Shown: positions 25,563 to 27,386 of the stretch, piece after piece
Layout of the letters: each line of letters begins with the position of its first letter
Position numbering within the stretch: position 1 is the first letter of the stretch
Source: Actinomycetes bacterium
GTDB lineage: Bacteria > Actinomycetota > Acidimicrobiia > Acidimicrobiales > RAAP-2
Length of the DNA: 64,000 nucleotides
NCBI GenBank assembly: GCA_021823525.1
Contig: JAKANY010000001.1
Coordinates: 62,001-126,000 of the forward strand
Direction: 5' to 3'
Translations under genes and position numbers: made by a program
The notes under the pieces: model-generated
The model's input: only the letters and a program-made list of their open reading frames with translations
What the model was told of the DNA's origin: nothing
Databases searched by the model: none

Positions 25563-25592
25563 TTGACCAGATTCTGTGCGTTCTCTTATGTT
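25563..25592 (+). promoter_or_regulatory. Strong sigma-A promoter for the TasA-like gene
   Basis: TTGACC (25563-25568), 18-base spacer, TATGTT (25587-25592), in an unusually AT-rich patch for this genome. It is followed by a leader of about 105 bases ending in AAGGAGGAGAGG. This is the best -35/-10 match in the window and suggests high expression. Confidence 0.6.
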
Positions 25593-25705
25593 CATCGGCG
25601 GGAGCGAGCAGTGCTGCCGCCGTACAACGCGGTCGTCAGGTGGGTGGCAGAGTGCGAGTGACGAGACCGGCGCCTCCATGGATAGTGCAACAAGGAGGAG
25701 AGGTC

Positions 25706-26608
25706 TTGAAGATACACACGTCACGACTCGTCATCGCCGCGGCCGCGCTCGGTCTCGCGTCGCTGACGTTCGTCGGTGTTGGCGGATATGCCGCGTTCAC
25801 CTCGCAGGTGACCGCCAGCGCGCAGGTGACCTCGGGGGAGTTCAACCTCGTGGTGCAGACGGGGACGACGGCCCTTGGCTGCACGGCGGGAGGTCTCCAG
25901 CAGAATGCTCAGCAGTTCGGCAACCCGGGGTGCTTCGAAGGCTCCGCCGTCAACGGCGTGTGGCAGTGGGGCGACGGGTACAACGCTCCCGTGGAGCAAC
26001 TCAACGGGCAGGACAACGGGTTCAGCCTGACGGTGCCCAACATGTCGCCGGGCGTCGCCTACTCGGCGAACTTCAGCGTCGAGGACTTCGGCACGCTGCA
26101 GGGCCTGGTCACCCAGGTGACCTACACCCCACCGACCTTCACGTCGTCGAACGACGGGCTCGCGCAGGGATCCGAAATCTACCTCTACCAGCCGGCCGGC
26201 TCCTACGAGGTGTATCCCAACGGTGGACCCGTGTACGGAACCCAGGACTGCACGGCTGTCGGGGACAGTTCCACGCCCAGCACCACGCTGGGCTCCCAGT
26301 GCTACCAGGGCGCCACGACGACGAAGACCGACCAGTGGACGCACCCGTACCAGAACACCACGTACTGGGAGCTCATCGGCTCGTTCAACGCCACGCAGGC
26401 CGGCGTCGCCAAGGTTCGCGAGGGATTCGTCCAGCCGTGGTACCCCGATGGGCCCAACGGCGGGCAGAAGGCGCCCGGTGACGAGGGCGGCGTGACGCTC
26501 AAGGCGGTTGTCGCGGTCCATGACGCGCTCGCCAATGGCGGCTCCAACGTCAATGAGGAGACGACCTTCGCACCATCATTCGCGGTGCAGGGGACGTCCC
26601 TGCCGTAG
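25706..26608 (+). CDS. TasA/CalY (camelysin)-like secreted protein
   Basis: A 300-residue secreted protein. After a short basic N-terminus comes a hydrophobic segment and then 'GGYAAFTSQVTASAQVTSG', the arrangement of TasA/CalY proteins, where the SipW-type peptidase cuts just before the Ala/Ser-rich stretch. TasA forms biofilm fibres in Bacillus; CalY-type proteins can be surface proteases or matrix proteins. The rest is Gly/Thr/Asn/Tyr-rich beta-type sequence with four Cys. The start is TTG 25706 behind a near-perfect AAGGAGGAGAGG; the track start at 25640 lacks a site and a signal peptide context. The SipW-like peptidase follows. Fibre formation is inferred. Confidence 0.75.
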   Translation: MKIHTSRLVIAAAALGLASLTFVGVGGYAAFTSQVTASAQVTSGEFNLVVQTGTTALGCTAGGLQQNAQQFGNPGCFEGSAVNGVWQWGDGYNAPVEQLNGQDNGFSLTVPNMSPGVAYSANFSVEDFGTLQGLVTQVTYTPPTFTSSNDGLAQGSEIYLYQPAGSYEVYPNGGPVYGTQDCTAVGDSSTPSTTLGSQCYQGATTTKTDQWTHPYQNTTYWELIGSFNATQAGVAKVREGFVQPWYPDGPNGGQKAPGDEGGVTLKAVVAVHDALANGGSNVNEETTFAPSFAVQGTSLP

Positions 26609-26618
26609 TCGTCCGCGA

Positions 26619-26668
26619 TCGCCACTCGCCCGGGGATTCGCGGCAGCAGATCCCCGGGCGAGTGGCGA
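26619..26668 (+). terminator. Perfect 18-bp inverted repeat between the TasA-like and SipW-like genes
   Basis: TCGCCACTCGCCCGGGGA, a 14-base loop, then its exact reverse complement. It starts 10 bases after the TasA-like stop and ends 16 bases before the peptidase ATG. It probably acts as a partial terminator or mRNA 3'-stabiliser that keeps structural-protein output above that of the peptidase. No T-tract. Confidence 0.65.
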
Positions 26669-26684
26669 GCACCCGAGAAGGACC

Positions 26685-27386
26685 ATGGGCACGAGCCATC
26701 ACGCCAGAAAGAAGTCGAGCAACAGGTCCAGTCCGGACGCGTTGTCGCCAACCGGCACGCCCACCTTTGAGGCTCCTGTGCCGATCGAGACGCAGGAGCC
26801 TTCGCACGGTGCTCGACGGTGGTGGTTGCGCGTCGGGCGCATCGCGGCGATCGTCATTTTCCTTCTCGTTGTGTGCGGCGTCGCGATCGTGGCGACGGCG
26901 GTCCTGACCGGCGACTGGCAGGCCACTCCGATCGTCAGCGGCTCGATGGTGCCGAAGTTACCCATTGGATCGATCGCCGTCTCGCAGCGCGAGCCACTGA
27001 ACGACCTGCGCGTTGGCGACATCGCCGAGCTCCACCCTCCCTTCAGCCGTCAGGTCACGTACGTCCACGAGATCATCCGGCTGCACCACCGGGATGGGAA
27101 GGTCATCGTCAAGACCAAGGGCATCGCGAACCCGATACCCGACCCGTGGACCGTCGTCGTGACCAGCTCCCACGTCTACCTTGTACGGGGGGAGATTCCC
27201 TACGTGGGTTACGTCGTCAGCTGGGTTCGCACCCGTGGCGGTCACGAGACCGTCTTGGTCGGCGCAGGGCTCTTTGCGATGCTGCTCGTCACCCTGACCT
27301 TGCGCGACGTGATCATCGATCGACGCCGGGACCATGAAGCGGCCAGCGTCACGCCGGATGACGTGGCGGCCCCCCCCACCACTTGA
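26685..27386 (+). CDS. SipW-type (archaeal/ER-type) signal peptidase I
   Basis: A 233-residue membrane protease. A Ser/Pro-rich cytoplasmic tail (about 1-45) leads to a membrane helix ('[20 protein letters not shown]') and the catalytic Ser in '[17 protein letters not shown]'. A His in '[12 protein letters not shown]' is the expected general base of the ER-type enzymes, instead of Lys. '[13 protein letters not shown]' corresponds to the usual 'KGDxN...D' block, with Ile where Asp is common. A second membrane helix is near the C-terminus. ATG 26685 with GAGAAGG upstream. It probably processes the adjacent TasA-like protein. Confidence 0.85.

Follow-up and report, generated by a model that had tools for sequence, protein, structure and literature searches.

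The window, a stretch of 64,000 nucleotides, carries on its forward strand a gene for an exported, TasA-like protein, which is directly followed by a gene for a signal peptidase of the SipW/ER type. The pair sits between an MFS gene, which lies upstream on the other strand, and groES, which lies downstream. The features of the locus, in window coordinates, are as follows.

25563-25592, plus strand: promoter-like hexamers, TTGACC and TATGTT separated by 18 nucleotides, with 9 of 12 matches
25692-25698, plus strand: ribosome-binding site AAGGAGG, seven nucleotides upstream of the TTG at 25706, as read from the sequence
25706-26608, plus strand: gene for the TasA-like exported protein (TTG start, 903 bases, 300 amino acids), from profile, alignment and structure searches
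25706-25792, plus strand: SipW-type signal peptide, residues 1-29, with predicted cleavage A29|A30 (GGYA|AFTS)
25793-25849, plus strand: predicted donor strand at the mature N-terminus, AFTSQVTASAQVTSGEFNL, by inference from TasA residues 28-47 (PMC9674648)
25880-25933, plus strand: first conserved cysteine pair, C59 and C76, within an insertion peculiar to the subfamily; invariant in all 6 members
26039-26053, plus strand: "proline box" NMSPG (N112-G116), the expected acceptor for the N-terminus of the next subunit; the interface role is that of TasA (PMC10151520)
26249-26302, plus strand: second cysteine pair, C182 and C199, of the four-cysteine subfamily; C199 is aligned in all members, C182 is shifted in two
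26619-26668, plus strand: intergenic stem-loop, a perfect stem of 19 bp (26619-26637 with 26650-26668) and a 12-nt loop, z-score -6.1
26685-27386, plus strand: SipW/ER-type signal peptidase (702 bases, 233 amino acids), with Ser87, His128 and Asp153, and KGI in place of KGD at residue 147
about 25441-27410, strand not applicable: segment that the nearest relative (L074) lacks between its MFS gene and groES; the left boundary is uncertain

The original prediction, made from the letters of the window, had described a strong promoter and a near-perfect ribosome-binding site on a TTG start. The ribosome-binding site is as described; the promoter-like site is also present, but with its 9 of 12 matches, and with one such site found where 0.3 are expected in shuffled sequence, it is better called plausible than strong. 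The proposed "YAAFTS" processing region likewise stands, GGYAAFTS lying right behind the hydrophobic leader, and the stretch LAS-FVGVGGYAAFT is nearly invariant in the alignment of the four-cysteine subfamily discussed below. The exact position of the cut, A29|A30, would be that expected by analogy with TasA.

Relationship of the first protein to TasA

The first protein fails the cut-offs of all the curated models concerned. It scores 12.9 bits (cut-off 22.5) with the Pfam camelysin family PF12389, over residues 10-51 in the signal-peptide region only, and a PF12389 search of the window's own genome gave no match; 19.8 bits (cut-off 450) with the NCBIfam TasA equivalog NF046066; and 8.4 and 13.8 bits (cut-off 19) with the SipW-cognate signal peptide model TIGR04088, of which it is yet the only match in the genome. 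Since these cut-offs are failed, "TasA-like" is the proper name for the protein, which should not be placed in the curated TasA or camelysin families. The scores come mostly from the signal peptide, the NCBIfam TasA profile aligning with residues 7-55, and for this reason the comparisons that follow were made with the mature part alone.

The confinement of the NCBIfam and Pfam matches to residues 7-55 and 10-51 would also fit an unrelated secreted beta-sandwich protein that is exported by a SipW-type peptidase and resembles TasA in its signal peptide only. We regard this as very improbable, as the mature-only model and profiles still give TasA, AbpA and AbpX, and the signal peptide was rejected as the whole source of the similarity on the same grounds.

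Relatives were gathered from 397 genomes of the order, 14 of which gave a match, and from contigs of public genomes, which gave 18 loci. In an alignment of 17 mature proteins (A3), F2, G15, F17 and L19 of the predicted donor strand are invariant, as are N83, P86, G87, D98, G100, L102 and G104. Both sides of the contact between TasA subunits, the mature N-terminus [A/S]F and the NxxPG box, are present as sequence marks of the TasA superfamily, and nearly invariant among the relatives; the exceptions at the N-terminus are L045, with ALDTS, and L071, with NFTS. Searching the PDB with A3 brought up six weak matches, four of them to AbpX and TasA (E 0.02-0.17, each non-significant), but fibronectin-type chains overtake TasA and AbpX when the alignment is reordered (A5), so that direct sequence evidence from the PDB is insufficient alone. 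Elsewhere in the phylum, the A3 profile picks out a classical camelysin of a different genome (E 2.9e-4), one that itself passes PF12389 with 62.9 bits; in profile-profile comparison, with the signal peptide excluded, A3 matches the mature camelysins of the same order and phylum with E 1.1e-6 over the NxxPG core; and the profile of those mature camelysins hits TasA in the PDB with E 4e-13.

Structure prediction agrees with this camelysin similarity. The mature window protein (pLDDT 73) and that of a relative, L062 (pLDDT 74), were modelled with AlphaFold at moderate confidence, the cysteine-rich insertion remaining unmodelled. Both models are beta-sandwiches, and in Foldseek searches of the whole PDB both have as their first match the TasA fiber 8aur, at E 1.2e-3 and probability 0.95 for the window protein and at E 2e-5, probability 1.00 and TM 0.44 for L062; the archaeal bundling pilus 7ueg stands at rank 15 of the L062 list (probability 0.98). 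TM-scores are low (0.29-0.44), but such modest values would not surprise if donor strand and insertion are positioned differently. The comparison of folds that had been named beforehand as a check therefore came out in favor of the original assignment of the protein as TasA/CalY-like: in the PDB, nothing matches the mature model better than the TasA fiber. The window family is a separate branch of the TasA-type family that the Pfam and NCBIfam models miss.

Having the TasA fold and export route does not oblige a protein to form fibers, and the first protein could be a monomeric or wall-bound surface protein, an adhesin or a carbohydrate binder. The Foldseek lists also contain jelly-roll carbohydrate-binding modules and further sandwich proteins, the long cysteine-rich insertion is not found in TasA, and PF12389 got its name from a proposed protease activity. 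We nevertheless consider such a role unlikely: the most conserved mature positions are those of the subunit contacts in the TasA fiber (PMC10151520), and for L062 the fiber form 8aur ranks first, well above the binding modules.

The signal peptidase and its pairing with the subunit

The second gene encodes, immediately behind the first as predicted, a signal peptidase of the ER/archaeal-type group, which passes TIGR02228 (60.9 bits, cut-off 51.85) and fails the equivalog model of Bacillus SipW, NF046067 (55.5 bits, cut-off 190). The only relatives found in the PDB are SEC11A and SEC11C, and the catalytic residues align with those of SEC11A. Ser87, His128 and Asp153 are invariant in 18 of 18 peptidases, with His rather than Lys as the partner of the catalytic Ser. 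From the alignment and general knowledge, we take Asp153 to be the third member of the human triad. A Ser-His-Asp triad is confirmed by PMC13385932.

In each of the 18 distinct pairs examined, the subunit gene is followed by the adjacent peptidase gene on the same strand, and the peptidases all belong to the same clade. The occurrence of the peptidase without its partner in relatives had been put forward in advance as a point to check; in all 18 pairs the two genes stand together, and those homologues that have no neighboring peptidase lie at contig ends. The two proteins have also diverged together, the distances among subunits and among peptidases being correlated across the 18 pairs with r 0.90, as against 0.41 for the best of 5000 permutations. 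By profile searches, on which all genome-wide statements here rest, this peptidase is the only SipW-type one above cut-off in the window genome, which is 95% complete, and neither a further SipW-type signal nor another TasA-like gene could be found there. Neither does a third gene resembling TapA turn up by profile, with the opposite-strand MFS gene upstream and groES downstream, in keeping with what had been predicted; a TapA-like third gene and a second substrate were both rejected on this basis.

Other SipW-type peptidases in relatives have other partners. A camelysin of PF12389 lies nearby in at least 5 loci of the order, so the principle of pairing a peptidase with its substrate holds for those as well. 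Two further arrangements were noted in passing. Loci L018, L024, L026, L029 and L032 have strong matches to a second kind of SipW-type peptidase in or beside open reading frames of about 570-740 amino acids, and in several of them a small protein with a "VASAFTASN"-type leader adjoins the peptidase. In L009, exported proteins stand on both sides of a SipW-type peptidase; the two have a leader of the form "YGFFAS/FGFFSA" and Cys close to an NxxPGD box, and may represent another cysteine-bearing variant of the camelysins.

The intergenic stem-loop

The stem-loop between the two genes was missed in the first reading of the window. Within the 140 bases downstream of the subunit gene, a stem of at least 13 pairs is found in 11 of 18 cases, against 5 among 97 further genes from these loci (Fisher p 1.4e-7, the related pairs not being independent); two of the 11, in L047 and L055, fall inside the annotated peptidase reading frame, which leaves 9 of 18 intergenic. 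The sequences of the stem-loops differ, so that it is the structure that recurs. The window's stem matches no Rfam family, and a known RNA family was rejected on that ground.

An ordinary terminator would account for a strong stem so close to the stop codon, and the peptidase would then have its own promoter, the neighbors not forming an operon. This we think rather unlikely. The window's stem has no T-run behind it and was not picked up by the terminator scan, the search for promoter-like sites came up empty between the two genes, and the pair is always adjacent, with short spacing. The likeliest role for the stem-loop would be protection of the subunit message at its 3' end, or some other way of lowering expression of the peptidase relative to the subunit.

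The four-cysteine subfamily

The four cysteines of the original prediction are indeed present in the mature protein, at residues 59, 76, 182 and 199, but as a trait they mark one subfamily only. This comprises the window protein and those of L046/L056, L047/L059, L055, L057 and L058, which are 50-55% identical and carry the insertion behind the first strand. The cysteines probably form two disulfides that would stiffen the fiber. In exactly these 6 pairs, the Asp of the peptidase KGD motif is Ile or Val, whereas it is Asp in the other 12; the six being related by descent, the coincidence of KG[I/V] with four cysteines counts as one event.

Genomic setting and distribution

Among 30 groES loci of the genus, MFS or pdxH adjoins groES wherever the upstream side is readable (two loci have no upstream match), and the pair occupies this site only in the window. 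In G047, a genome of the same genus, another branch of the pair lies immediately downstream of groEL, and the closest sequence relatives of the window's pair are in other lineages, including another family of the order. The uniqueness of the segment to the window's groES site, together with these relationships, suggests that the pair was gained as a unit. A wider survey of the phylum and class with the mature profile gave almost nothing new, so that the family seems to be patchily distributed and limited to a small number of lineages.

Several observations were made on the surroundings of these loci. A CIRCE-like operator, TTGGCAGTC-N9-GAGTGCTAG, lies before groES at window positions 27423-27449, intact directly downstream of the peptidase gene. 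Downstream of groEL, the window encodes at 29661-38237 (plus strand) a repetitive, probably secreted protein of 2858 amino acids, two stretches of which gave no Pfam match when tested; a partial match to it is also found near the G047 pair. In genome G207 (L054/L105), an intact pair is accompanied by a further copy that two TAA stops interrupt and that seems to be a duplicate in decay. The same pair lies at 2589-4059 of L071, a record titled "Bacillota bacterium" with a GC content of 0.66, through either mis-binning or transfer.

A proposed mode of assembly

The pair itself, its conservation and co-divergence, the similarity of fold to the TasA fiber, the interface motifs and the intact catalytic residues make it likely that the cassette consists of a matrix-fiber subunit of the TasA superfamily and its own processing enzyme. 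The donor strand of TasA comprises residues 28-38 (PMC9674648), and the proline box, which contacts residues 28-29, is the most conserved part (PMC10151520); both halves of this contact rank among the most conserved features here. In the likeliest mechanism, the subunit would be exported, presumably by Sec, and cleaved behind Ala29 by the SipW-type peptidase, freeing an N-terminal strand that starts with AFTS. This strand could then fit into the beta-sandwich of the next subunit beside the NxxPG box and complete its fold, and, each freed strand filling a neighboring subunit, an extracellular fiber would be linked together by donor-strand exchange. A TapA starter would not be needed, given the precedent of B. 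cereus, which lacks TapA and whose sipW-tasA makes fibers in B. subtilis without tapA if provided with its own SipW (PMC4292775). The stem-loop would probably protect or insulate the subunit message, so that subunit is made in quantity and peptidase sparingly.

TasA-type fibers are best known from Bacillus and some archaea. The cassette described here very probably makes a secreted, self-assembling matrix fiber and the enzyme that trims it, and represents a divergent actinobacterial branch with its own peptidase, beyond the curated Pfam and NCBIfam models and small enough to move as a unit. If fibers do form, it would offer a two-gene system, free of accessory proteins, in which to study the initiation of donor-strand fibers, a natural experiment in enzyme-substrate co-evolution (four cysteines versus KG[I/V]) and a candidate for a component of the biofilm matrix in actinobacteria. 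A more far-reaching proposal, for which the chances seem to us a little short of even, is that of a separate, disulfide-braced family of donor-strand matrix fibers that evolved in actinobacteria, spread as a two-gene cassette with no TapA-type starter, in which the KGD of the peptidase changed together with the four-cysteine substrate.

Comparison with known systems

In the open-access literature, to which the search was confined, we found no direct report on TasA or SipW in actinobacteria or Acidimicrobiia. The locus had been said to mirror the sipW-tasA arrangement of Bacillus. The pairing does, but the order does not: here the structural gene comes first and the peptidase second, the reverse of Bacillus, a point overlooked at the time. 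With the B. subtilis TasA fiber (8aur, 5of1) the window protein has in common the SipW-type signal peptide, the mature AF N-terminus, SG-x-[FL]-x-L, NxxPG and GxL, and with the tapA-sipW-tasA operon a dedicated ER-type peptidase, TasA being the best fold match in the PDB. It differs from B. subtilis in having the subunit before the peptidase, no TapA and an intergenic stem-loop, and from TasA in its four cysteines and long insertion, being too divergent for the curated TasA model.

Outside B. subtilis, it is usual for TapA to be missing (PMC10151520, PMC4292775). The B. cereus sipW-tasA and calY genes, which encode camelysins of PF12389, work without TapA and require their own SipW (PMC4292775); there the peptidase comes first, and the window protein falls below the PF12389 cut-off (12.9 vs. 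22.5 bits). Closer at hand are the camelysin-SipW loci of the same order and phylum (L007, L014, L017, L019, L033 and L104), in which the peptidase is likewise close to a TasA-superfamily protein, but those camelysins pass PF12389 with 27.6-69.8 bits and the window family forms a separate branch. The archaeal bundling pili AbpA and AbpX (7ueg, 9rhp, 9sj2), which are TasA-like donor-strand fibers, match the window family in both profile and fold, though more weakly than TasA does. We know of no four-cysteine insertion in AbpA or AbpX. As for the enzyme, the eukaryotic SEC11A and SEC11C share the aligned Ser-His-Asp catalytic residues of the window peptidase, but work within a multi-subunit complex, whereas the window peptidase has a long N-terminal tail and KGI for KGD.
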